Source of the DNA: Planctomycetota bacterium
GTDB taxonomy: Bacteria > Planctomycetota > MHYJ01 > WSZJ01
NCBI GenBank assembly: GCA_016190145.1
Contig: JACPRD010000059.1
Span: forward strand, 1 to 64,000
DNA length: 64,000 nt
Direction of reading: 5' to 3'
Part shown: positions 36,861 to 49,013 of the stretch, one piece after another
How positions within the stretch are numbered: the stretch's first letter is position 1
How the letters are laid out: every line of letters begins with the position of its first letter
The notes under the pieces: generated by a model
Databases searched by the model: none
The model's input: the letters and a program-made list of their open reading frames with translations, nothing else
What the model was told of the DNA's origin: nothing
Translations under genes and position numbers: made by a program

Positions 36861-37967
36861 ATGCGCACGTTCGTCCTGCTGCTCGTCCTGTCGACCGCCG
36901 CCGCCGCCGACCCCGGCCGCTGGGAACCCGCCAATACCTGGGTCTTCATGGCCGGCGTCCTCGAGTGGCAGGACAAGAACCTGTCCCCCTTCCCCAAAAA
37001 GGACCGCAAGGACCGCGTGCTCGAAACGAAATTCAAGGAAGCGGGCGTCCCCGCCGGCCAGATCGTGTTCCTCGAGGACGCGCAGGCGACCCAGAAAGCC
37101 ATGCAGCAGGAACTCCGCAAGCTCGCCGAGGCCGCGCCCGAGGGCAGCACGTTCGTGTTCTACTACGCGGGCCACGGCATGCAGGACGACGGCGGCGAGG
37201 TCTACCTCGCCAACCACGACGCCGACACCGGCAAAAAGAAGGCGACCTGCGTCGCCATGGCCGACGTCGAACGCATCCTCTCGAAGAACTTCAAGGGCGC
37301 GCGCCTCTTCTTTCTCGCCGACTGCTGCTACTCCGGCGCGCTCGCGAAGGTCGTGAAGTCCTTCGACGGCAAACCCGCCGCCTGCCTCACCAGCGCCACC
37401 GCCTCCAACGTCTCCACCGCCGAATGGACCTTCACCGACTCCCTCGTCTCCCTCTTCGACGGCGACGGCGCCCTCGACACCAACGCCGACGGCTCCCTCA
37501 CCCTCCGCGAAGCCGACGCCTGGTCCGCCGGCGAAATGCGCTTCAAGGAGGGCCAGCTCACCCGCGCCGCCCTGACCCCCCAGTTCGACGTCGACTTCGT
37601 CTTCGGCGCCGTCGACCCCGCGCTCAAGCCCAAGGAGATCCCGGGCCCCTGGAAATTCCACGACTACTGCGAGGTCGAGGAAAAAGGCGTCTGGTACCGC
37701 TCCCAGGTCCTCGACGGCCGCGAAGGCGAATGGTTCATCCACTACCTCGGCTGGGAGGCCAAGTACGACGAATGGGTGCCGGCGAAGCGCATGCGCAAGC
37801 CGCAGGGCATCGGGCTGTCCGGCGGCGACGCGGTGAAAGTCGAGTGGAAGGGGAAGTGGTACCCGGCCAAGGTGATGAAAGTCGAAGGCGACTTCGCCTT
37901 CATTCATTACGACGGGTTCGGGGCCGAGTGGGACGAGTGGGTGACGGGGAAGCGGGTGAAGAAGTAG
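36861..37967 (+). CDS. Secreted caspase-family peptidase with two Tudor/chromo-like barrels
   Basis: 368 aa. Signal peptide to about 16 (LLLVLSTAAAA). Caspase domain: His105 in FYYAGHGMQDDGG and Cys156 in LADCCYSGAL, the catalytic dyad of C14 peptidases. A calcium-type acidic loop (DGDGALDTNADGSL) follows, as in metacaspases. C-terminal residues about 260-368 hold two SH3-like barrels, each with W-Y-(R/P)-(S/A)-x-V...F-I-H-Y...W-D/Y-E-W-V, resembling Tudor-knot/MBT-type modules usually found in eukaryotes. A degraded copy of the last barrel lies at 44438-44524. Overlaps the convergent zinc-ribbon gene by 68 nt. GGAGAAG precedes ATG. Confidence 0.85.
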   Translation: MRTFVLLLVLSTAAAADPGRWEPANTWVFMAGVLEWQDKNLSPFPKKDRKDRVLETKFKEAGVPAGQIVFLEDAQATQKAMQQELRKLAEAAPEGSTFVFYYAGHGMQDDGGEVYLANHDADTGKKKATCVAMADVERILSKNFKGARLFFLADCCYSGALAKVVKSFDGKPAACLTSATASNVSTAEWTFTDSLVSLFDGDGALDTNADGSLTLREADAWSAGEMRFKEGQLTRAALTPQFDVDFVFGAVDPALKPKEIPGPWKFHDYCEVEEKGVWYRSQVLDGREGEWFIHYLGWEAKYDEWVPAKRMRKPQGIGLSGGDAVKVEWKGKWYPAKVMKVEGDFAFIHYDGFGAEWDEWVTGKRVKK

Positions 37968-38187
37968 CCTCCTGTTCGGCGCGCTCCCGCTCTTCGATGT
38001 ACCCGTCCACCCACGCGGTCCAGCCCTTCGGAAACGGTTTCTTCATCTCCAGCCCGCACCCCGGGCAGATGGCGTAGGCCACGGCGCCGCAGAGGGCCGC
38101 GCGGAACGCGACGTCCGCGCGTTGCTCTTCGTTATGCAGCTTTCCGCAGACCTCGCACTTCGTCCCGTCGAGAATTCTGTCTGACAT
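37900..38187 (-). CDS. Small zinc-ribbon protein
   Basis: 95 aa. Two Cys pairs, CEVCG and CPGCG, form a likely zinc ribbon, followed by FPKGWTAWVDGYIEERERAE. The C-terminal 22 residues are encoded opposite the end of the caspase gene. A degenerate copy with the same DGTK-EVCGK start at 44643 supports the call. Role unknown. Confidence 0.6.
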   Translation of the reverse strand: MSDRILDGTKCEVCGKLHNEEQRADVAFRAALCGAVAYAICPGCGLEMKKPFPKGWTAWVDGYIEERERAEQEATSSPASPSPTRPTRPRTRRNE

Positions 38188-38270
38188 GGCAGGGATCTCC
38201 AGGAAGAAGAGTGGAACCCGTTCGCGCGCGGGGAGGATTCTAACCTGCGGGGTCCGATTTCAAAGCGCGG

Positions 38271-38448: not shown

Positions 38449-38784
38449 TCAGTAGAGGCAGGCATCGAGAAGGGACAGCACTTCCTGCAGGACCTCTTCG
38501 GGCGCTCTGCCGATGCATCTGGCCTTCCGAGCGCGGAAATCGAGGGCCTTGACTTGTTCCACCATGACGAAACCGGTCACGCCCAGGTTCTCAGGGATGT
38601 GCACGTGGAATGGGTAGTCGCGATGCGTGTGAGTGATGGGGCAGACGATGGCAAGGCCTGTGTGACGGTTGAAGAGGTCGTTGCTGACCACCAGTGCGGG
38701 GCGGCGGCCACGCTGCTCGTGGCCGGACTGAGGGTCGAAGGTGACGGCAACAAAGTCCCCTTTCCGTGGGAAGTACTCCGCCAT
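38449..38784 (-). CDS. mazF: MazF/PemK-type endoribonuclease toxin
   Basis: 111 aa. MAEYFPRKGDFVAVTFDPQSGHEQRGRRPALVVS, read as PxxGDxVxxxFDP then GHEQxGRRPALVVSN, is the MazF signature; VCPITHTHRDYPFHV and GFVMVEQVKALDF complete the fold. Cleaves mRNA. ATG follows the mazE stop directly. Standard toxin order, antitoxin first. Confidence 0.95.
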   Translation of the reverse strand: MAEYFPRKGDFVAVTFDPQSGHEQRGRRPALVVSNDLFNRHTGLAIVCPITHTHRDYPFHVHIPENLGVTGFVMVEQVKALDFRARKARCIGRAPEEVLQEVLSLLDACLY

Positions 38785-39033
38785 CTACCAGACCTCCTTG
38801 CCGACAGGTCGACCCCAGTCCATCTCCCGGGTCCTGCGGTTCCGGGGAATACGTCTCACCAGTTCGCGCAGATCGTGCTTGCCTCGAACCAGGCGAACGG
38901 GCTTGACAACAATGACTCCGTCGCGCGCCACCACGTCCACGGTGTCCCCCACACGTATCGCGACCTCCGAGAGCAACTGCTTGCTCAGGCGAAGCCCCTG
39001 ACTGTTGCCCCATTTCTGGACTTTTGTGGTCAT
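38785..39033 (-). CDS. mazE: MazE-type AbrB-fold antitoxin
   Basis: 82 aa from ATG 39033, set by TAGGAGG (39041-39047) at 7 nt. TTKVQKWGNSQGLRLSKQLL is the AbrB/SpoVT swapped-hairpin domain that binds the operator; the rest (RELVRRIPRNRRTREMDWG) would wrap the toxin. Confidence 0.93.
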   Translation of the reverse strand: MTTKVQKWGNSQGLRLSKQLLSEVAIRVGDTVDVVARDGVIVVKPVRLVRGKHDLRELVRRIPRNRRTREMDWGRPVGKEVW

Positions 39034-39040
39034 GGCCCGA

Positions 39041-39064
39041 CCTCCTAGGGATATCCGAAGTATA
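39041..39064 (-). promoter_or_regulatory. mazEF promoter -10 and Shine-Dalgarno
   Basis: TATACT on the minus strand (39064-39059) and a full TAGGAGG (39047-39041) give a short leader. Confidence 0.55.
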
Positions 39065-39169
39065 GCCATGACTGCCCCTCGGGTCCATCGAGTTCCGAAA
39101 TCCCAACATCGAGCCGTCGCCCGGGGCCGGTGCTATCATCATTCACGGGACCTGGTGAGGGGGCGTCGA

Positions 39170-42100
39170 ATGTCGCGCGAATCCGATCTGCTGTTCGGCC
39201 TGCTGGCCTTGCAGATGAATTTCGTGTCGAAGGAGCAGCTCCTCGAGTGCGCGGCGGTCTGGATGAACGATCGGTCGCGCGATCTGGGGAAGCTTTTTCT
39301 GGAGCGCGGATTCCTGAAGGATTTCCAGCGTGCGGCGGTGCGCGCGATGGTCGAGGCGCAGCTCCGGTCGAACGGGGGCGACGCCGAGCGGTCGCTGGCC
39401 GGACTGGCGTCGCCGAAGGCGGTGCTGGAGTCGCTCCTGGGGCTGAATCCGCCGCCGGACGTGGAGCGGTCGATCGCGGCGGTGAAGGCGCGAGACGTGA
39501 ATCAGACGGTGATCGTGGCGCCTCCGTCGCCGGACCGGTACCGGCTGGGTGCGGAGATCGCGCGGGGCGGACTGGGGCGGGTGATGGAAGCGTTCGACGC
39601 GACGCTGGGGCGGAACGTGGCGGTGAAGCTGGTGCTGGACGACCTGGCGCCGGACCTTGCGGAGCGGTTCGAGCGCGAGGCGAAGCTGACGGGACGGCTG
39701 GAGCACCCCAACATCGTCCCGATCCACGATTACGGGACCCTCTCCCCCTCGACGGGCTCGGGGCAGGGGGGCCCTTCGACAGGCTCAGGGCAGGGCAAGC
39801 GGCTTTTCCTGAGCATGAAGCGGATTCGCGGACGGGATCTCGGGAAGCTGCTGAAGGCGATCGCGGAGGGGGACAAGGACGCGCGGAGGACGTATTCGCG
39901 GGCGCGGCTCCTGCGGATGTTTCAGGACATCTGTCTGGGGATGGCGTTTGCGCACGATCACGGCGTGATCCATCGTGACCTCAAGCCCGCGAACGTCATG
40001 ATCGGCGACTACGGCGAGACGCTGATCGTGGATTGGGGGCTGGCGAAGGTGCAGGGCGAAAGGGGGGAAGGGCGGAAGGGCGGAACGACATCGTCGGTCT
40101 CGCCGGAGTTGACAATGGAGGGCGAAGTCGTCGGGACGCCGGCGTACATGTCGCCGGAGCAGGCGGCGGGGGAGATCCACGAGGTGGACCATCGGAGCGA
40201 CGTCTACTCGCTGGGGGCGATCCTGTACCAGATTCTGACGCTGCACGCGCCGTTCGAGGGGAAGACGGCGCGGGAGATCATCAGCAAGGTGCGTTCGGGC
40301 CGGATCACTCCTCCTTCGCACAGAGTGGGGAACGGGGGAACGGGGAACGAGGACCCGGAACGGACGGTCGTGAAGGCCCCCTCGACTCACACGGTGGCGG
40401 ACGCGATCCCGCAGGAACTGGACGCGATCTGTCTCAAGGCTCTGGCGTTCAAGCGCGAGGACCGCTACCAGACGGCCACCGAGCTTCACGACGAGATTCA
40501 GCTTTTCCTCGAAGGCGTCAAGGAGCGCGAGCGCAACCACGCGTTGGCCGAGGCGGCGGTGGCGAAGGCGAAGGAGCTGGCGGCGCGGCAGAACCGCCTG
40601 CGGGAGGAAGCCAGGTCTGCGGCGGAGGAGGCGAAGAAGAAAGAGAAGGACGTCAAGCCGCACGAGGACAAGGCGGCGCTCTGGGCGGGGCAGGACCGCG
40701 CGGGGGAGCTGGAGCGCGAGGCGGTGGGCGCGTTCGCGGAGGCGAACGCGGCGCTCACGGTCGCGCTCGGCCACGAGCGGGAGCACGCCGAGGCTCGGCG
40801 GCTGAAGGCGGAGCTATTCTGGGGGAAGTACCTGGAGGCGGAGGAGAAGGGGGACAAGAAGGACGCGTTGCTCCACCGCAAGATGGTGGAGCAGTACAAC
40901 GACGGCCCGCTGGACGCGCTGCTGAAAGGCGACGGGACGCTGACCGTGCGGACGCGGGCGTATCCCTGCCGGTGCCTGGTGGACAGGCGCATCGTGAAGC
41001 CCGAGGAACTGGCGTGGATGGGGTATCACCCGTTTTCGGGCCGCGCGCTGGACGGAATGAAAGGGGCCGAGGGCCTTCCGGACCTGGAGCCGAAGGAGCC
41101 GGTGCATCTCAAGGTCCACGGCCCGGACTGCGAGCCGCTCGCCGTCGAAGGCGCGGACGTCTGGCTGTTCCGGTACGAGGAAATCGAGCGGCGACTCATG
41201 CCGGTGACACCCGACTTGCGCGCAGCGCAAGTCGGCCTGAGCGAGCGAAGCGAGTCGAAGGGCCCTCCCGTGGACGCACTGTTTGCTTCGGATTCGCCGT
41301 ACCGCCCGCAGGGCTCGGGCCTGCACCTCGGCCGAACGCCGATCGAAAAGCGCACGCTGCCGATGGGCTCGTATCTGCTCCTGGTGGCGCACGAAGGCCG
41401 CGCACCGCTGCGCGTCCCCGTCTCTATCCCGCGCTGCGGCTCCTGCGAGCAGGACGTGACGCTGTTCCGCCCGGACGAGATCCCGCCGGGCATGATCCCG
41501 ATCCCCGCGGGGCCGTTCGGGTACCAGGGCGATCCGGAGAATCCGCACGCCGGTCCCGCGGAAACGAAGGTCGTGGACGACGTCTTCATCGCGCGGCACC
41601 CCGTCACCTGCCGCGAATACTGCGAGTTTCTCAACGACCTCGCGAAGGTACACCCCGACGAGGCGGCGAAGCGGGTCCCGCGCCAGGTGGAGGAAACGGG
41701 TTTCTACTGGGCGGGGCCTCCGTACGCTGTTCCGACCGCCGACGGGCTCGCGGCGGCGTCCGTCGAGCTGAAGGCGAAGGCGAAACGGCTCCAGAACAGC
41801 CCGGTGGACTGGGAAGAGGACTGGCCGGTCCTCAGCGTCTCCTGGGAAGACCTGATGACGTTCTGCGCTTGGCAGCGAGCGCGTGATGGCCGCGTCGTGA
41901 CCCTCCCGCACGAGGAAGCATGGGAAAAATCGGCGCGGGGAACGGATCGGCGGTTCTTTCCGTTCGGGAGTCATCTTGACGAGCGGTGGTGCAACAATCA
42001 GCGTTCCCATCCCGGAGGTTCGAGACCGGTGCGCGTGCAGGAGTTCGCGGGCGACGAATCGCCTTACGGCATTCGTGGATTGGCGGGCAATGCGCAGGAT

Positions 42101-42280
42101 ATGTGCCTGAACTCTCCAGGAGCGGAGTACCCCGGCTGGCGGCTGTTCCGCGGCGGCCTCTGGAGCCTCACGGGAATCCTCTCCCGCGCCACGTACCGCA
42201 CGGGCATCACGACCCGCCTTGTTTTCTGGAGCTACGGGGGTCGGGTGGTCGCGCCGTGCCGTCTTGCGAGGACTCCTTAG
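39170..42280 (+). CDS. Ser/Thr protein kinase fused to FGE/C-type-lectin domain; DGR variable protein
   Basis: 1036 aa from ATG 39170 (GAGGGGGC upstream). Residues 1-100 form an N-terminal helical domain common in planctomycete kinases (SKEQLLECAAVW). The kinase domain (about 123-430) has ARGGLGRV, Lys153 in VAVKL, HRDLKPAN (Asp270), and DWG at 288-290 in place of DFG. A coiled coil spans about 445-560. The FGE-sulfatase-type domain starts near 775 (GMIPIPAGPF) with VSWEDLMTFC, EEAWEKSARG, YGIRGLAGNAQDMC. Residues 989-1015 are the diversified part (GWRLFRGGLWSLTG...). No signal peptide or membrane segment. Several repeat elements sit in frame inside it. The frame is intact, so the protein is probably expressed; ligand unknown. 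Confidence 0.92.
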   Translation: MSRESDLLFGLLALQMNFVSKEQLLECAAVWMNDRSRDLGKLFLERGFLKDFQRAAVRAMVEAQLRSNGGDAERSLAGLASPKAVLESLLGLNPPPDVERSIAAVKARDVNQTVIVAPPSPDRYRLGAEIARGGLGRVMEAFDATLGRNVAVKLVLDDLAPDLAERFEREAKLTGRLEHPNIVPIHDYGTLSPSTGSGQGGPSTGSGQGKRLFLSMKRIRGRDLGKLLKAIAEGDKDARRTYSRARLLRMFQDICLGMAFAHDHGVIHRDLKPANVMIGDYGETLIVDWGLAKVQGERGEGRKGGTTSSVSPELTMEGEVVGTPAYMSPEQAAGEIHEVDHRSDVYSLGAILYQILTLHAPFEGKTAREIISKVRSGRITPPSHRVGNGGTGNEDPERTVVKAPSTHTVADAIPQELDAICLKALAFKREDRYQTATELHDEIQLFLEGVKERERNHALAEAAVAKAKELAARQNRLREEARSAAEEAKKKEKDVKPHEDKAALWAGQDRAGELEREAVGAFAEANAALTVALGHEREHAEARRLKAELFWGKYLEAEEKGDKKDALLHRKMVEQYNDGPLDALLKGDGTLTVRTRAYPCRCLVDRRIVKPEELAWMGYHPFSGRALDGMKGAEGLPDLEPKEPVHLKVHGPDCEPLAVEGADVWLFRYEEIERRLMPVTPDLRAAQVGLSERSESKGPPVDALFASDSPYRPQGSGLHLGRTPIEKRTLPMGSYLLLVAHEGRAPLRVPVSIPRCGSCEQDVTLFRPDEIPPGMIPIPAGPFGYQGDPENPHAGPAETKVVDDVFIARHPVTCREYCEFLNDLAKVHPDEAAKRVPRQVEETGFYWAGPPYAVPTADGLAAASVELKAKAKRLQNSPVDWEEDWPVLSVSWEDLMTFCAWQRARDGRVVTLPHEEAWEKSARGTDRRFFPFGSHLDERWCNNQRSHPGGSRPVRVQEFAGDESPYGIRGLAGNAQDMCLNSPGAEYPGWRLFRGGLWSLTGILSRATYRTGITTRLVFWSYGGRVVAPCRLARTP
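39746..39797 (+). repeat. Palindrome-family repeat inside the kinase gene
   Basis: Two tandem copies of a CTTCGACAGGCTCAGGGCAG-type unit, translated as STGSGQG twice, inserted between kinase strands. Confidence 0.75.
41236..41262 (+). repeat. Palindrome-family repeat inside the kinase gene, second site
   Basis: Encodes LSERSESKG in frame between the coiled coil and the FGE domain. Its reverse complement matches 43734-43761. Confidence 0.8.
42133..42212 (+). other. DGR variable repeat (VR)
   Basis: 80 nt in the kinase-FGE gene, codons 989-1015, aligned without gaps to the TR at 43784-43863 (offset 1651). Ten mismatches by my count: nine at TR adenines and one T/C. All adenine changes are in the first two bases of six AAC codons (now CTC, AGC, CTC, CTC, TAC, ATC). 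Confidence 0.95.
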
Positions 42281-42683
42281 CCCTTTACGCTCTTGCCCTT
42301 TTACCCTCTTTCACCGGGGAGGCCACGGGCCGCAGGATCTGGAGGTCTTCGCCCGTTTGTACGACGCCCTGCTCTGGCTGGTGCCGGAGATCGGAAAATT
42401 CCCGAGGAGTTTCCGCTTCACGTTGGGCGAGAAGCTCGAGAGCATGCTGTACGGCACACTGGACGATCTGGTCCGGGCAAGATACGCACGCACCGCCACG
42501 AAAAAGGAGATCCTTGGCGGTGTCAACGTGCGCCTCGAGCGCATTCGCGTGTTCTTCCGGCTGAGCAGGGATCTGAAGGTGATCGGCCACGACAAGCACG
42601 AGCGGGCGATCCGCGACGTGGATTCGGTCGGCCGGCAGGTCGGCGGTTGGATCAAGTCGTTGGAGGGGGGTGTCCGGCCATGA
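42264..42683 (+). CDS. avd: Avd-like DGR accessory protein (four-helix bundle)
   Basis: The core from about 42336 matches Avd proteins: DLEVFARLYDALLWLVPEIG, then KFPRSFRFTLGEKL, ending in helices DVDSVGRQVGGWIKSLEGG. Avd forms a pentameric barrel that binds RT and template RNA. Placed between VR gene and RT as in known DGRs; stop overlaps the RT ATG. No ATG or GTG opens the frame. TTG 42264 lies inside the end of the kinase gene; CTG at 42339 is closer to the expected N-terminus but lies 15 nt from GGGGAGG. Start therefore uncertain. Confidence 0.8.
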   Translation: MRGLLSPLRSCPFTLFHRGGHGPQDLEVFARLYDALLWLVPEIGKFPRSFRFTLGEKLESMLYGTLDDLVRARYARTATKKEILGGVNVRLERIRVFFRLSRDLKVIGHDKHERAIRDVDSVGRQVGGWIKSLEGGVRP

Positions 42684-43783
42684 ACCGTGTCGGCGGACTG
42701 TTCGATCGGATCTGGTCCTTCGAAAACCTCTGGGAGGCGGCGCGGCGAGCACGCCGGGGGAAACGCTATCGCGCGGCCGCCCTGGAGTTCGATTTTAACC
42801 TCGAGCACGAGCTGCTCAGGCTGGAACAGGTTCTTGCGGCCGGCTCCTGGCGGCCGGGGCCTTTCCGGGAGTTCCGCATCTTCGAGCCAAAAGAGCGGCT
42901 GATCAGCGCGCCTCATTACCCGGATCGGGTCGTCCATCACGCCGTGATGCGGATCGTCGGGCCGGAGCTGGATCGCCGGTTCGTGAGCCAGAGCTACGCC
43001 TGCCGAAAGGGAATGGGGACGCACCGGGCGATTCTTCGATGCGCCGAACTCTGCTGCAGCCACCCGTATGTTCTGCGGTGCGACATTCGTAAATTCTACC
43101 CCAGCGTGGATCAAGCGATCCTGAAAGCGAAGTTCCGGCGGGTCTTCCGCGAACCCCGCTTGCTGCAAGTCCTCGACGCGATCGTGGACGGGTCCAATCC
43201 ACAAGACCCGACACCGTGGATTTTTCCGGGAGATGACCTCTTCACCTCCGCTGAACGGCGCCGAGGCCTGCCGATCGGCAGCCTGACAAGCCAGTGGTTC
43301 GCCAACCTCACGCTCAACGATCTGGATCACTACGTCGTCCGTGTCCTTCGGCCCGCGGGGTACGTCCGGTATATGGACGATTTCCTGCTCTTCGGAGAAG
43401 ACCCCGAGACCCTCGCCCGCCATCGCGAGACCATCCGGGTCTTCCTTCAGGCCGAGCGCCTCAAATTGCACGAAACAAAGTCTGTCGTTCTCCCGACCTC
43501 GCGCGGCGTGCCCTTCCTCGGATGGAGGGTATTTCCCGGATTCCGCCTTCTCCGAAGCGAGAACAAGCGCCGGGCCCGGCGCCGCCTGCGCCGGCTCGCG
43601 CGAGACTTCAGGCGCGGCGACTCGTCGGTCCAAAACGTCCGGCAGTCGGTCACCGCCTGGATCGCCCACGCATCATGGGGCGACACCTGGCGCCTGAGAA
43701 AGGAGCTGATCGAAAAGACGACGTTCCGCAGTGCCATTCGACTCGCTACGCTCGCTCAAGGCAGTCCCGGCGTCCGCCGGTGA
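42680..43783 (+). CDS. DGR reverse transcriptase
   Basis: 367 aa. RT motifs: RCDIRKFYPSVD (Asp135), GLPIGSLTSQWFANLTLND (the IGxxxSQ form, residues 199-205, that marks DGR RTs in place of QGxxxSP), and GYVRYMDDFLLFG (YMDD 231-234). These put it in the DGR group rather than group II intron or retron RTs, and no maturase, endonuclease or intron RNA is seen. The ATG overlaps the avd stop. The last 17 or so residues (IRLATLAQGSPGVRR) are encoded by a palindrome-family repeat (43734-43761), so the C-terminus is secondarily altered. The stop is immediately followed by the TR. Confidence 0.95.
   Translation: MNRVGGLFDRIWSFENLWEAARRARRGKRYRAAALEFDFNLEHELLRLEQVLAAGSWRPGPFREFRIFEPKERLISAPHYPDRVVHHAVMRIVGPELDRRFVSQSYACRKGMGTHRAILRCAELCCSHPYVLRCDIRKFYPSVDQAILKAKFRRVFREPRLLQVLDAIVDGSNPQDPTPWIFPGDDLFTSAERRRGLPIGSLTSQWFANLTLNDLDHYVVRVLRPAGYVRYMDDFLLFGEDPETLARHRETIRVFLQAERLKLHETKSVVLPTSRGVPFLGWRVFPGFRLLRSENKRRARRRLRRLARDFRRGDSSVQNVRQSVTAWIAHASWGDTWRLRKELIEKTTFRSAIRLATLAQGSPGVRR
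43734..43761 (+). repeat. Palindrome-family repeat at the RT 3' end
   Basis: Near reverse complement of 41236-41262; reads into the RT C-terminus and ends 23 nt before the TR. Confidence 0.75.
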
Positions 43784-43863
43784 CGGCTGGCGGTTGTTCC
43801 GCGGCGGCAACTGGAACAACACGGGAATCAACTCCCGCGCCACGAACCGCACGGGCAACACGA
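43784..43863 (+). other. DGR template repeat (TR)
   Basis: 80-nt copy of the VR beginning at the base after the RT TGA. It has 19 adenines; twelve are the first two bases of six AAC codons (when read in the VR frame), the classic DGR design that allows broad amino-acid change without stop codons. A small hairpin (CTCCC/GGGAG, about 43869-43884) follows. Confidence 0.95.
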
Positions 43864-44017
43864 GTCCACTCCCCTGCAAGGGAGGGCCGGCAGGCGCCCG
43901 TCTGTTCCGGTGCGATCGGAGCGGCGAACATGAAGATGGCCCGGCGGATCCTGGTAGCCGGCCGAAACCCGAGCGCACAGCGCTCGAGGCGAAGGTCGGC
44001 GAACGCCTCCGCCGGGC

Positions 44018-44437
44018 CGGTTCGCGCTTCCCAAGAAGCAGGCGGATCGTCACGAAGAGGAGCACGAGAAGGCGGCGCGGGGCGTCGATGGGCGCGTTTA
44101 CCCCTGGGGCGACGACTACGACGGGTCGTACTCGCACACGAGCGTCTCCATCCCCGGCGGAATCCGACCGATGCCCGTGGGGTCGTTCGCGACGGACGAG
44201 TCGCCCTTCGGCGTCGCGGACCTGGCGGGCGGCGTGCAGACGTGGCTTCTCAACGCGGCCCAGGTGCCCCATCGTTACCTCTGCTGCCAGCGCGGGGGCT
44301 CGTGGACCCTGCCGGAGAGGAACGCCCGCGCGGCGTTGCGTCAGGGCTATCCCCAGACGAACGTCCTCCGGTCCATCGGCTTCCGCCTGGCGGTGCGACC
44401 AATGAATCAGGCTCGGCTTCCCTCGGTGGCAACCTGA
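44018..44437 (+). pseudogene. Degraded FGE-sulfatase/C-type-lectin fragment
   Basis: In one frame: FALPKKQADRHEEEHEKAARG, then GRVYPWGDDYD, SPFGVADLAGGVQTW, RGGSWTLPERNARAALR and IGFRLAVRP. This is the C-terminal half of an FGE-type domain (cf. LPTEAEWEKAARG...GNVWEW...RGGSW...GFR). The start of the fold (SANASAGPVRAS-like) is in another frame just upstream, so the copy is frameshifted. Probably a dead relative of the kinase-FGE gene. Confidence 0.75.
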
Positions 44438-44524
44438 TGGAAAGGGAAGTGGTACTCCGTGAAGGTGATGAAGATCGAAGGCGACTTCGCGTTCACCCAT
44501 TACGACGGGTTCGGGGTCGAGTGG
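44438..44524 (+). pseudogene. Remnant of the caspase-gene Tudor barrel
   Basis: 87 nt aligned to 37845-37931 with 11 mismatches (hand count, 87% identical), encoding WKGKWYSVKVMKIEGDF and THYDGFGVEW. No start or catalytic part remains. Confidence 0.8.
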
Positions 44525-44643
44525 ATGGCGCAGGCCACCGCCCCATGCAGCATCCCGTATCCCGCCAGTCTGCCGCGCTGTTTCTCGTCGTGCTGTTTCC
44601 CGCAGACTTCGTATTTCGTCCCGTCAGCGAATCCGTTCTGCAT
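44524..44643 (-). pseudogene. Remnant of the small zinc-ribbon gene
   Basis: Matches the 5' part of 38187-38068: DGTKYEVCGKQHDEKQR against DGTKCEVCGKLHNEEQR. One Cys of the first pair is Tyr here, and the second Cys pair and tail are missing. A deletion of about 137 nt relative to the intact locus joins it to the barrel remnant. Confidence 0.7.
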
Positions 44644-44798
44644 GGCCAGCCTCCCATTCATTCGCGCAGCAACCGCTCTTGGCGCGGTGCGCCAGCGATC
44701 AGGCGGGACGCACAATTCGCGGCATGTTTGATTCCGAGTCGTTCACCTGACTATGATCCTCGTTCATGAGGCGATCACAGCCGGTCGAAGCGTAGCGC

Positions 44799-46475
44799 AT
44801 GCCCCCTGCCTCCAGCAACGCGCTCATCGTTCAGAGCGACAGCACGGTGCTCCTGGAAGTGCATGCTCCACGCGCGGAAGAGGCGCGGGAGGCGCTCGCG
44901 CCGTTCGCCGAGCTCGTCAGAAGCCCGGAGCACGTGCACACCTATCGACTGACGCCGCTCTCCATCTGGAACGCGCGTTCCGCGGGGCTCTCCGGTGCCG
45001 CGATGGTCGCCGCCCTGCGCGAGCATTCGAAGTACCCGGTGCCGGGAAACGTCGCGACCGAAGTCGCGGAGCTGGCGGCGCGGTACGGGCGAGTGGTGCT
45101 CACGAAGAATGGAGAGGCGCTCATGTGTACCTGCTTCGACCGTTCCACGGCGGAGCGGCTCGCGCGCGACAAGGCCGTCGGTCCGCACCTCGAAGACCGG
45201 ATCGACGCGACCCGCTTTCGCGTGCTTCCGGCCGCGCGCGGCGTGCTCAAGCAGGCGCTCGTCGCCGCGGGTTTCCCCGCGGAAGACCTGGCCGGTTACG
45301 CGGCCGGCGAGGAAATGCAGGTCGCCCTTCGCGAAAGGTGCCGTTCGGGCGCCTCGTTCGAGGTGCGCGACTACCAGCGCGGCGCCGCGGACGCGTTCCA
45401 TCTCGCGGGTTCGGACCGGGGTGGCAGCGGCGTCGTCGTGCTTCCCTGCGGTGCAGGAAAGACCATCGTCGGCATGGTGGCGATGGCGGCGGTCGGGCAG
45501 ACGACGCTCATCGTGGCCACCAGTCTCACCTCGGTGAAGCAGTGGCGCCGGGAGATCCTGGACAAGACGACACTTCCCGAGGATGCGATCGCGGAGTACA
45601 CGGGCGAGTCGAAGGCCATCGGGCCGGTGACGCTCACGACCTACCAGGTGCTGACATGGCGGGCCGCTCGAGAGAGCGAGTTTCCACACCTGGCGTTGTT
45701 CCGGGCCCGGTCCTGGGGGCTCATCATCTACGACGAAGTGCACCTCCTTCCCGCGCCGGTCTTCCGCGTCACGGCCGATCTTCAGGCCCGCCGCCGCCTC
45801 GGGCTGACGGCGACTCTGGTGCGCGAGGACGGCCGCGAGGGGGACGTGTTCGCGCTGATCGGGCCCAAGCGCTACGACGTCCCGTGGCGGGAGCTGGAGC
45901 AACGCGCCTGGATCGCGACGGCGGTCTGCACCGAGGTGCGCGTCCCGATGACGGAGGCGCGGCGCATGGAGTACGCGCTCGCCGAACGCCGCGGGCAATT
46001 CCGCATCGCGGCGGAAAACCCCGAAAAGGCCGCGCACGTGCGCGCCGTGGTGGCGAGTTGCCCGGAGGGCCGCGTGCTCGTCATAGGCGAGTATCTTTCC
46101 CAACTCGAGTCCCTCGCTCGCGAGATGTCCGCCCCGCTTGTGACCGGCAAGACGCCGCAGGTCGAGCGGGAGAAACTCTACGACCGGTTCCGCCGCGGCG
46201 AATTGCGCCACCTGATCCTCTCCAAGGTGGGCAACTTCGCCATCGATCTGCCCGACGCGGACGTCCTCATCCAGGTTTCGGGCATGTTCGGGTCGCGTCA
46301 GGAGGAGGCCCAGCGGCTCGGCCGCATCCTTCGGCCGAAGGCGAACGGTCGGACTGCGCACTTTTTTTCCCTGGTGTCGCGCGACACGCGCGAGGAGGAT
46401 TTCGCCCACCATCGAAAGCTCTTCCTCACGGAGCAGGGTTACTCCTATCGCATCGAGATCGTCCCCGGAGCCTGA
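44799..46475 (+). CDS. XPB/Ssl2-family DNA helicase
   Basis: 558 aa. N-terminal damage-recognition-like part (about 1-190), then SF2 motifs: Q-like FEVRDYQRGAADAF, Walker A PCGAGKT (218-222), YDEVH (Asp312, DEVH as in XPB rather than DEAD), LGLTATLVREDGRE, and motif VI QRLGRILRPK. Bacterial XPBs of this size occur in actinobacteria and others and unwind 3'-5'. The next two genes are part of the same run (4-nt gap, then ATGA-type overlap). Confidence 0.92.
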   Translation: MPPASSNALIVQSDSTVLLEVHAPRAEEAREALAPFAELVRSPEHVHTYRLTPLSIWNARSAGLSGAAMVAALREHSKYPVPGNVATEVAELAARYGRVVLTKNGEALMCTCFDRSTAERLARDKAVGPHLEDRIDATRFRVLPAARGVLKQALVAAGFPAEDLAGYAAGEEMQVALRERCRSGASFEVRDYQRGAADAFHLAGSDRGGSGVVVLPCGAGKTIVGMVAMAAVGQTTLIVATSLTSVKQWRREILDKTTLPEDAIAEYTGESKAIGPVTLTTYQVLTWRAARESEFPHLALFRARSWGLIIYDEVHLLPAPVFRVTADLQARRRLGLTATLVREDGREGDVFALIGPKRYDVPWRELEQRAWIATAVCTEVRVPMTEARRMEYALAERRGQFRIAAENPEKAAHVRAVVASCPEGRVLVIGEYLSQLESLAREMSAPLVTGKTPQVEREKLYDRFRRGELRHLILSKVGNFAIDLPDADVLIQVSGMFGSRQEEAQRLGRILRPKANGRTAHFFSLVSRDTREEDFAHHRKLFLTEQGYSYRIEIVPGA

Positions 46476-46479
46476 GTCC

Positions 46480-46746
46480 ATGGTCGATTCCGCTCACCCG
46501 CTGGACCCGTTCCTTCCGTTGCTCCAGGCCGCCCGGCCCGCGATCCTCTCGAACGCGACCCTGCTGGAGGTCCAGGACCTCGCGCAGATGCTCGAGCTGA
46601 GCCGCGATCCGCGCATCGGTCGCCACCTTCTCGCGCGGCTCTCGGATACGGTGGCGATCGTCGACCCTGGCGCGGAGGAACTCCTTGTCAAAGCCCTGCG
46701 CACGGCGGGACACACGCCCAGGACGGTGAAGGGAGTCGAACCGTGA
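46480..46746 (+). CDS. Small hypothetical protein between XPB and its partner
   Basis: 88 aa, helical: FLPLLQAARPAILSNATLLEVQ, LAQMLELSRDPRIGRHLLARL. Starts 4 nt after XPB and overlaps the next ATG. No family recognised; placement suggests a linker subunit. Confidence 0.7.
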   Translation: MVDSAHPLDPFLPLLQAARPAILSNATLLEVQDLAQMLELSRDPRIGRHLLARLSDTVAIVDPGAEELLVKALRTAGHTPRTVKGVEP

Positions 46747-49013
46747 GCCGGGCCGCTCTTCCGTTTGTCCTCGCCGGCAAGCCTGCGCAAGCCGAGCCCA
46801 ACCTCGAGTATGTCAGCTCTGAGGAGGCCCGGAAGGCCGCGCGCTTCTGGGTCGGCAAGGAGGCGAATTCTCTGCGCAAGGCCGAATGCATGGAGCGGCT
46901 CCTCCGCGCCTGGCGCGATCCAAGGCGAGCCGCCGAAGTCGTGGAGGCGCTCCGGCCGGATGAACGCGCCGCGCTGGCCGTCGTCCGGCGCTTCGGCGGG
47001 TCCATTTCGGGGGAGATCCTCCGGCGCGAGCTTCTCGCCAGAGAAGTCGTCAAGGAGAAAAAGCGGGGAGACCCCGACTACTACCGCAGGGACGACGATC
47101 CGGTGCTCAATCTGTGCGAACGCTTCGTGCTCATGAGGGAAGCGGGAACCTGGGACTCCTATTCAGGCGGTCTCTCGGTCCGATACCCGGGCGTCGCGTT
47201 GCCCGCCCGGGTAGCCGCCCTGATCGAGCCGGCCGCTTCGCTCGATTGGAAGGCATCGGCGCCCGCCGGCAAGGCACCGGAATCGGCCGTCGGCCGGGCG
47301 CCCGCGCAGGTGATGGTCGATCTGGAGCAGACGGCCGGAGCTCTGCGGGCCATGGGCGGCTGGAAAGTCAACCAGGGCGGAGCGCTGCCCGCCGCGGCGC
47401 GAAACCGGCTGGGCAAGCTGCTGCCTTCGGCGGGGAAGGACCCGCTCGAACCGCCGGACCGGTGTGTCCTCGATTACGCCCTGCTGTGCGCCCTCGGAGC
47501 CGTCGAGATCGACGGGGCCGAGGGGCGGCTTGAACCCGAGCGCGCGGAGCGCCTGCTGCAACTTCCTTGCGAAGCGCAGGCGTCCGGGTGGATTCGCGCG
47601 TGGATGACCCTGCGCATCTGGCAGGATGCCATCGGCGGGGTGCCCGACCGCGACAACCGGGAGGAATCCACGCGCATCGACCCGAACTCGATGCGCAAGG
47701 CCCGGGAGCTTCTTGTCTGGACGCTCACGCGCGTCGCGCACAGCGGCATCGGCTGGCTCGATCTCGAGACGTTCCTCCTGGATCTCTATGTGGCCGCCGG
47801 CGAGTACGGCTTCTCTTTCTACTGGCACGATTACGCCTGGACGCCTCGTCTTGCCTCGGCCGCCGGGAAGGACGCGCTGCCGGCCGGGTTCGAGCGCTCG
47901 CGCGCCTTCTGGATGGACGACGGGGGTGTCTGGGCGGCGAACGCGCTGCTCTCCACTTTCGTCCACCTCGGCGTCGTCGAGCGGGGACGCAGCGGCGGCG
48001 CCCGTTCCGAGCGCTGGTCTTTCCGTCTCACCGAAATCGGCATGGCCGTCTTCGGCGCTCCCGAAGTCCGGCGCCCGAGGGCACCGGAGAGCGAAAAGTG
48101 CCTCACCGTTCAGCCGAACCACGAAATCCTGCTCTATCTCGACGCCGCCGACGGGGCGGCCGTGACGACGCTCGGGCGAATCGCGTCGCGGGCGTCCACG
48201 ACCGGCGTCGTCCAGACTTTCGAATTGACGCGCGACTCCGTGTACGGGGCGCTCGAGGGAGGAATGACTGCCGACGCGATCGAGTCGTTCCTCGCCGAAC
48301 GGAGCCGCAACAGCCTGCCGGCGAATGTCGCCCAATCCCTCGCCGACTGGTCGCGCAAACGCGATGCCCTCGTCGTGCGCGGCGGAGTCGCCGTCGGGGC
48401 GAATCTGCCCGAAGGCCAGGATGTCCTCCGGGGCCGCGCCGTGGGGAAGCGATTCGTCCTCGCCTCGGCAAGGGCGGCGGGCAAGGAGGCGCAGGCTGTG
48501 CGCATCGCAGCGGAGTCCGCGGTTCCGCCGCGCAACTGGATGATCAACGAATACGGAGTCGTCTCGCCGGAAGAGCCGATGTCTCTCATCGGCGGCGCCC
48601 GGATGCGCCGCTTCGCCGTCTCCTCCGGGAACTCCTGGCGGATCACTCGCGAGTCCGTTCGCGCGGCGCGCGAACTGGGCATCACGAGCGACCAGATCCT
48701 CGCCTGGCTGGAAGCGCACCTGAGCCAGGAGTTGCCGCCGGTTCTGGCGGCTGCCATCAGGAACTGGGCGGGCGCGCGCGCGAAGTCATTCCTCGGCGAC
48801 GTGGTTCTTCTTCAGGTCGACGACCCCAAGGCGTTCGACGCGCTGCGGCGGAGCGCGCGTCTCCGCCCGTTCCTCCAGGGCACGCTGGCCCCCGGTTGCT
48901 TCATCGTGGCGGCGAACATGCGCGACGAGGCGAGCAAGCTTCTGGGTGAGCTGGGATTCGCGCTCGACGGGCCCTGCAAGCTCGAAGGGGAGGCCCCGGG
49001 GACGGGGTTTTGA
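46743..49013 (+). CDS. Helicase-associated XPB-partner protein (Helicase_C_3 type)
   Basis: 756 aa. N-terminal helical winged-helix stretches, then the segment CLTVQPNHEILLYLDAADGA...IASRASTTGVVQTFELTRDS...ALEGGMTADAIESFLAERS, which is the XPB/Ssl2 N-terminal helicase-associated (Helicase_C_3) domain. A similar protein next to XPB is found in mycobacteria (the Rv0861c-Rv0862c pair, from memory). Likely a DNA-binding or nuclease-type partner for XPB in repair or defence. No obvious nuclease motif seen. Confidence 0.8.
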   Translation: MSRAALPFVLAGKPAQAEPNLEYVSSEEARKAARFWVGKEANSLRKAECMERLLRAWRDPRRAAEVVEALRPDERAALAVVRRFGGSISGEILRRELLAREVVKEKKRGDPDYYRRDDDPVLNLCERFVLMREAGTWDSYSGGLSVRYPGVALPARVAALIEPAASLDWKASAPAGKAPESAVGRAPAQVMVDLEQTAGALRAMGGWKVNQGGALPAAARNRLGKLLPSAGKDPLEPPDRCVLDYALLCALGAVEIDGAEGRLEPERAERLLQLPCEAQASGWIRAWMTLRIWQDAIGGVPDRDNREESTRIDPNSMRKARELLVWTLTRVAHSGIGWLDLETFLLDLYVAAGEYGFSFYWHDYAWTPRLASAAGKDALPAGFERSRAFWMDDGGVWAANALLSTFVHLGVVERGRSGGARSERWSFRLTEIGMAVFGAPEVRRPRAPESEKCLTVQPNHEILLYLDAADGAAVTTLGRIASRASTTGVVQTFELTRDSVYGALEGGMTADAIESFLAERSRNSLPANVAQSLADWSRKRDALVVRGGVAVGANLPEGQDVLRGRAVGKRFVLASARAAGKEAQAVRIAAESAVPPRNWMINEYGVVSPEEPMSLIGGARMRRFAVSSGNSWRITRESVRAARELGITSDQILAWLEAHLSQELPPVLAAAIRNWAGARAKSFLGDVVLLQVDDPKAFDALRRSARLRPFLQGTLAPGCFIVAANMRDEASKLLGELGFALDGPCKLEGEAPGTGF

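Follow-up and report, generated by a model that had tools for sequence, protein, structure and literature searches.

A genuine diversity-generating retroelement (DGR), with its target gene, avd, reverse transcriptase (RT), template (TR) and RNA stem, occupies positions 39170–44021 of the window, the 64,000-nt stretch of DNA analysed here, and has probably stalled recently, because a deletion of about 40–70 nt appears to have taken the 3′ end of TR together with the adjoining part of the spacer, which would freeze the current variant of its target. The window, contig C6, belongs to a draft metagenome assembly (5.35 Mb, 217 contigs, 85% complete) from a Planctomycetota bacterium. We observed a TR-directed pattern of substitutions in the variable sequence (VR), a TR that is too short, a conserved RNA stem behind it and the remains of a second DGR on contig C134 of the same genome. 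From these we infer the deletion, and loss of activity and fixation of a variant would be its consequences.

Table 1. Features of the DGR locus (window coordinates).
Feature	Position	Strand	Comment
Target gene: Ser/Thr kinase + FGE-sulfatase/C-type-lectin	39170..42280	+	Pkinase 117 bits, FGE-sulfatase 76 bits
VR	42133..42212	+	Six TR AAC codons rewritten, residues 997, 999, 1000, 1004, 1009, 1013
Second variable cluster, residues 1017–1022	42218..42235	+	Variable among paralogues; TR coverage presumed from relatives; outside the window TR
avd accessory gene, ORF	42219..42683	+	Likely start TTG 42264; stop overlaps RT start (ATGA)
DGR-type RT	42680..43783	+	Motifs IGSLTSQ, YMDD; RVT_1 domain
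22-bp dispersed repeat	43737..43758	+	Between putative original RT end and TR; extends RT frame
TR, 80 nt, 3′ end missing	43784..43863	+	VR identity stops at 43863
Putative deletion junction	43863..43864	+	TR 3′ end and part of spacer, together some 40–70 nt, probably lost
Conserved DGR-RNA 3′ stem	43924..44021	+	Internal GGTAG ... GCGAAC; covariance model

The original prediction placed four DGR parts in this order on a single strand, and both the profile searches and the VR/TR alignment agree with it, all of them being on the + strand. In the target protein, a kinase domain (residues 124–377) with the K, HRD and DWG motifs is joined through a long linker to an FGE-sulfatase/C-type-lectin domain (residues ~773–1030); the lectin assignment rests on the FGE-sulfatase profile, the AlphaFold model of this domain having been set aside (mean pLDDT 54.7). 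Because no membrane segment was found in the protein, its sequence suggests that the kinase sensor is probably cytosolic. The accessory protein, predicted as Avd-like, exceeds the cut-offs of both NF033474 DivGenRetAVD (NCBIfam; 84.9 bits vs 80) and Pfam bAvd (55.9 vs 40). The RT could likewise be assigned to the DGR type, as predicted, by its motifs, by its position in the tree and by its matches to phrog_1423 (E = 2e-110) and to the family of PDB 8ub7 (E = 3e-53), a molecule that carries the name 'Reverse transcriptase' and nothing more specific, and which we take to be the DGR RT of phage BPP-1. The three frames had been described as intact: those of the RT and avd are indeed open, but avd has neither an ATG nor a GTG start, possible starts being TTG 42264 and TTG 42219, and the final ~16 codons of the RT frame pass through a dispersed repeat. 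The first of these TTG codons is usable, and start loss was consequently dropped as a sign of decay. The 22-bp repeat, TTCGACTCGCTNCGCTCGCTCA, has 22 copies in the genome at ≤2 mismatches (control, 0); besides the one in Table 1, the window contains a copy at 41238–41259 on the − strand, in frame within the target gene.

A search for RTs over viral and genome collections yielded 160 loci, and a script looking for near-repeats with adenine-favouring mismatches identified TR/VR pairs at 129 of 173 RT loci; it also recovered two controls, the window pair and the TR and VR of BPP-1 as annotated. The RT-profile and near-repeat searches suggested with the original prediction thus returned a DGR-type RT together with its repeats, and in the tree the window RT groups with RTs accompanied by TR/VR pairs of their own, as befits an element that is a DGR. 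Its sisters are five RTs from cyanobacterial plasmids (45–47% identical), with weak support (SH-aLRT 77). As had been proposed, TR lies directly behind the RT gene, starting at the base after its stop codon, an arrangement also present in elements from Nostoc, Fischerella, Microcystis and Anabaena.

VR and TR differ at 10 of 80 positions, nine of them TR adenines and the tenth a silent T/C change; the probability of at least nine of ten mismatches falling on the 19 adenines of TR is 3.5e-6 (hypergeometric). Six AAC codons of TR appear in VR as CTC, AGC, CTC, CTC, TAC and ATC, and the six rewritten residues are probably ligand-facing. Of the 61 positions that are not adenines in TR only 1 differs, which suggests that the last homing event was recent. 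No other direct repeat within the surrounding 8 kb comes near this pair in length, and a search with the adenines free and ≤3 mismatches found exactly two copies of the sequence in the 5.35 Mb genome. Additional VRs were consequently rejected, there being one VR and one TR among the 217 contigs. VR had been described as 3′ in the target; it is close to the end of the gene but stops 68 nt short of it.

In DGRs, Avd and RT bind the TR/stem RNA, reverse transcribe it with errors at A and write the cDNA into VR. At this locus, Avd and RT would thus have copied the TR RNA with adenine errors into the 3′ portion of the target gene, changing six residues; the outcome is visible in VR and TR, and the individual steps are presumed from the established mechanism. 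Rewriting of VR would retune the binding face of the kinase sensor, and the kinase would presumably signal on ligand binding.

The window TR is, however, unusually short: 80 nt, where 122 relatives have a median of 118 nt and a 5th percentile of 105, with 5 identical nt past the last A-mismatch vs a median of 19 in the same set. In those relatives that we inspected, the translated TR goes on through another group of Asn codons and closes with a GFR-like end matching VR; the VR protein of the window has both this second cluster (residues 1017–1022) and the end, whereas its TR has neither. Nothing resembling the VR end was found in the 147 nt behind TR, and shuffled sequences aligned just as well with the 3′ terminus of the target gene (P = 0.60). 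The invariant TR terminus that corresponds to the end of VR (IMH*/IMH) is therefore absent from the element; a 13-nt identical run near the end of TR, in the low tail of the relatives (minimum 11), is a possible substitute for it. Short TRs were also detected in two further relatives (L242 and L295), one of them adjoining masked sequence.

The structured RNA that adjoins TR in other DGRs is present, although with a shortened spacer. A recurrent stem with internal GTAG...CGAA lies behind the TR of phage and chromosomal relatives (e.g. L335:7291–7371 and L143:5904–5984). In the alignment, 81.7% of the cells pair, vs 37–47% when the partners are slid, although placement of the stem used pairing energy, which biases these counts toward it; the covariation score was 0.77, vs 0.15–0.28 when slid. 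A covariance model built from 59 relatives, leaving out the window and C134, detects this stem at 36 of 86 RT loci outside its building set, some of them near-copies of model rows and all on the RT strand, and its best match among 29 sources is the window stem (24.3 bits, E = 0.0012). The distance from TR start to stem is 140 nt in the window vs 179–300 nt in the 59 relatives. An Rfam search of the window and C134 gave nothing credible, and RT-14 (RF02921) went unmatched even at E = 10; among the DGR loci tried, this family matched three only, phage-type relatives in which it spans the TR–RT stretch that holds the modelled stem. The possibility that the hairpin behind TR was a dispersed repeat was rejected, since it is unique in the genome.

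Because TR is short and its start lies so close to the stem, ~40–70 nt of its end and the spacer are probably missing, and a single deletion across the end of TR and the start of the spacer, leaving the 3′ stem in place, is the simplest account. In BPP-1, cDNA synthesis begins at the 3′ junction of TR, at IMH* (PMC12875486), and an IMH region at the end of VR is a condition for a DGR target (PMC3240598); by analogy, a TR without its 3′ end should home poorly or not at all. Its cDNA copies would neither start normally nor find VR, and the sensor variant would remain frozen. The element had been described as complete and possibly active. Completeness is doubtful, because TR does not have the 3′ end that matches the VR end in relatives, and activity finds no support in an element with this end absent, followed by sequence unlike VR, and a TR start-to-stem distance below those of all 59 relatives. 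Against stalling, the 13-nt identical run could still act as an anchor, RT and avd both keep open frames, and short TRs were likewise obtained from L242 and L295; also, with homing so recent, the stalled state must be very young.

Some of these points favour a DGR that is complete and functional although its TR is unusually short, in which a GC-rich run near its end, ACCGCACGGGCA, serves as the anchor and only the first cluster is diversified; the near-identity of VR and TR outside adenines, the open frames, the 13-nt run and the conserved stem all fit with it. Nevertheless, we consider it unlikely, given that both the length of TR and its distance to the stem are at, or even outside, the lower limit of the relatives, and that the inspected relatives span the second cluster and the GFR-like end, including even a Prosthecochloris TR with an internal deletion. 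This last TR (L341:7021–7122, on a plasmid of Prosthecochloris aestuarii) is internally deleted with respect to both of its VRs and retains its 3′ end. An assembly error concealing a full TR, and an active DGR, is improbable: the assembly is a draft metagenome in 217 contigs and near-identical VR and TR sequences may confuse assemblers, but a mix-up between them would leave VR-like sequence past the junction, where we find instead DGR RNA with its conserved stem. The genome is just 85% complete and a related locus (L235) has tandem TR-like units, which would be compatible with a complete second TR in the missing ~15% feeding the window VR, the local one being a spare; this is very improbable, with neither another TR nor a second DGR RT found among the 217 contigs. 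Finally, that VR and TR are ordinary remains of gene duplication next to an unrelated RT is, in our view, refuted by the A-directed mismatches, the DGR-specific Avd, the grouping of the RT with TR/VR-bearing RTs and the DGR RNA stem taken together, in spite of the large target family, of an FGE gene fragment behind TR (44050–44440) and of the top NCBIfam match of the RT being a group II model, far below its cut-off.

The region directly behind the DGR RNA (44050–44646) contains the FGE-type gene fragment, 80% identical to C168:20201–20403, followed by a partial duplicate of 37845–38190, the tail of a caspase-like gene. This gene (36861–37967) codes for a caspase-like peptidase (Peptidase_C14) whose C-terminus carries Tudor-knot/chromo-like repeats, a pairing that is unusual in bacteria. 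Immediately upstream of the target gene there is a pair coding for a MazF/PemK-like toxin and a MazE-like antitoxin (38452–39069, − strand), and further downstream (44799–49013) an XPB/ERCC3-like helicase gene followed by one for a Helicase_C_3/Tfb2-like protein; a second copy of the XPB/ERCC3-like helicase, 59% identical, is on contig C145.

Contig C134 holds what looks like a decayed sister DGR. The nearest paralogue of the target gene, C134:8710–11778 (73% identity over its full length), is followed by MESGKEMEIVARYYDMLLWAVP, which resembles the N-terminus of Avd (E = 0.005, in a small local set), and 3′ of this stump there is sequence homologous to window positions 43897–44028, with the RNA stem inside it, which scores 15.4 bits (E = 0.0022 when 1.7 kb is searched, E = 0.27 across the 29 sources). 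Each of these two pieces is modest on its own; nevertheless, both of the closely related target genes are trailed by this pair of DGR pieces, ordered alike, for which descent from one DGR is the best explanation. We rejected the common segment as a dispersed repeat, because its ~40 other matches in the genome are short and in unrelated sequence. The C-terminus of avd, the RT and TR would thus have been lost from C134, which, with only target gene, avd stump and stem left, may represent a later stage of the kind of decay seen in the window. We also tested for overwriting from the window TR: the VR of C134 differs from it by 13%, and the C134 flanks from those of the target by 31%, other paralogues being nearly alike.

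The target belongs to a family that is abundant throughout the genus. The window genome and four congeners (G000–G004) have a very large kinase family with many FGE-type ends (94–206 protein-level matches per genome), and from 19 to 54 FGE domains each, 35 of them in the window genome. No DGR-type RT was found in the four congeneric genomes (81–89% complete), all of which contain the target family, nor any Avd remains elsewhere in the genus past weak matches. Among 13 close paralogues, none has a neighbouring RT and DGR remains occur at C134 only. Variability in these paralogues is high at the AAC sites of TR: five of the six are in about the top 5% of the 270-residue domain, with residue 999 in the 84th percentile. 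Considering ten expected sites (the six TR AAC sites plus four of the second cluster), codons that are free to vary end in C in 41 of 64 cases, vs 886 of 2136 elsewhere (P = 4e-4). Residues that NNC cannot encode (K, E, Q, M, W) are rare, 5/129 vs 565/3375. The synonymous C-ending signal was not significant at the six TR sites alone (P = 0.25), and more distant paralogues showed no clear NNC bias (P = 0.08). It is conceivable, and we propose it tentatively, that a DGR diversified a kinase-lectin sensor whose copies were duplicated across the genome, the machine then disappearing from one locus after another until a fixed multigene repertoire of sensors remained. Differences within the repertoire would then sit at the AAC codons of the old template, a notion that is equally tentative and that we keep secondary to the stalling of the window element. 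Past template-directed change would fit the variability and the codon pattern, but selection on the binding face could explain most of both.

DGRs are usually catalogued as present or absent, and the interest of this locus is that one genome seems to show two stages of loss, a freshly broken element and a stump, alongside a large sensor family without the machine. That bacteria might freeze a useful variant by losing the diversifier has been raised for cyanobacteria (PMC7517822), and at these loci it becomes a testable proposal. As a caution, an open RT frame together with a TR/VR pair does not suffice for calling a DGR active; the end of TR and the RNA stem need checking as well.

The DGR of Bordetella phage BPP-1 has the same parts and the same adenine-directed difference between TR and VR, with an RT that is 36% identical, but its TR, of 134 nt, is situated between avd and the RT gene and its target is a phage tail protein. 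Closer are the elements of the cyanobacterial plasmids (L335–L339), whose RTs are the nearest found to that of the window and which in four of five cases have TR right behind the RT gene; however, TR is 125–137 nt in the four nearest, vs 80 nt, their hosts are not planctomycetes and the targets on these plasmids carry different N-terminal domains. A different organization occurs in a related DGR from the metagenome-assembled genome Candidatus Desulfovibrio intestinipullorum (L235:3864–5965 in DXHV01000083.1), in which avd and the RT gene are separated by ~6.5 tandem units of ~306 nt. The conserved stem is present in six units and a TR-like stretch in every one, of which the last TR alone clearly matches VR (91%, with 8 of 11 mismatches falling on A), the rest having diverged; such a tandem template array would be unusual.

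As in the window genome, DGR loci in Thiohalocapsa PB-PSB1 are duplicated and their components have been degraded, there by short repeats, and CLec sensors are borne on signalling domains; several of those loci were proven variable in nature (PMC10907252). Two Planctomycetota DGRs (L219 and L263; RTs 41–46% identical) share with the window a kinase + FGE target and a TR behind the RT gene, but this TR is 127–130 nt long and has a full 3′ end. The kinase-lectin architecture of the target is already known, because cyanobacterial DGRs with kinase-CLec targets and many RT-less paralogues have been described (Vallota-Eastman et al., 2020, PMC7517822), and the window DGR, with its Ser/Thr kinase fused to a CLec-type domain, is not novel in this respect. 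Unlike those systems, the window genome retains DGR remains next to a paralogue, at C134.
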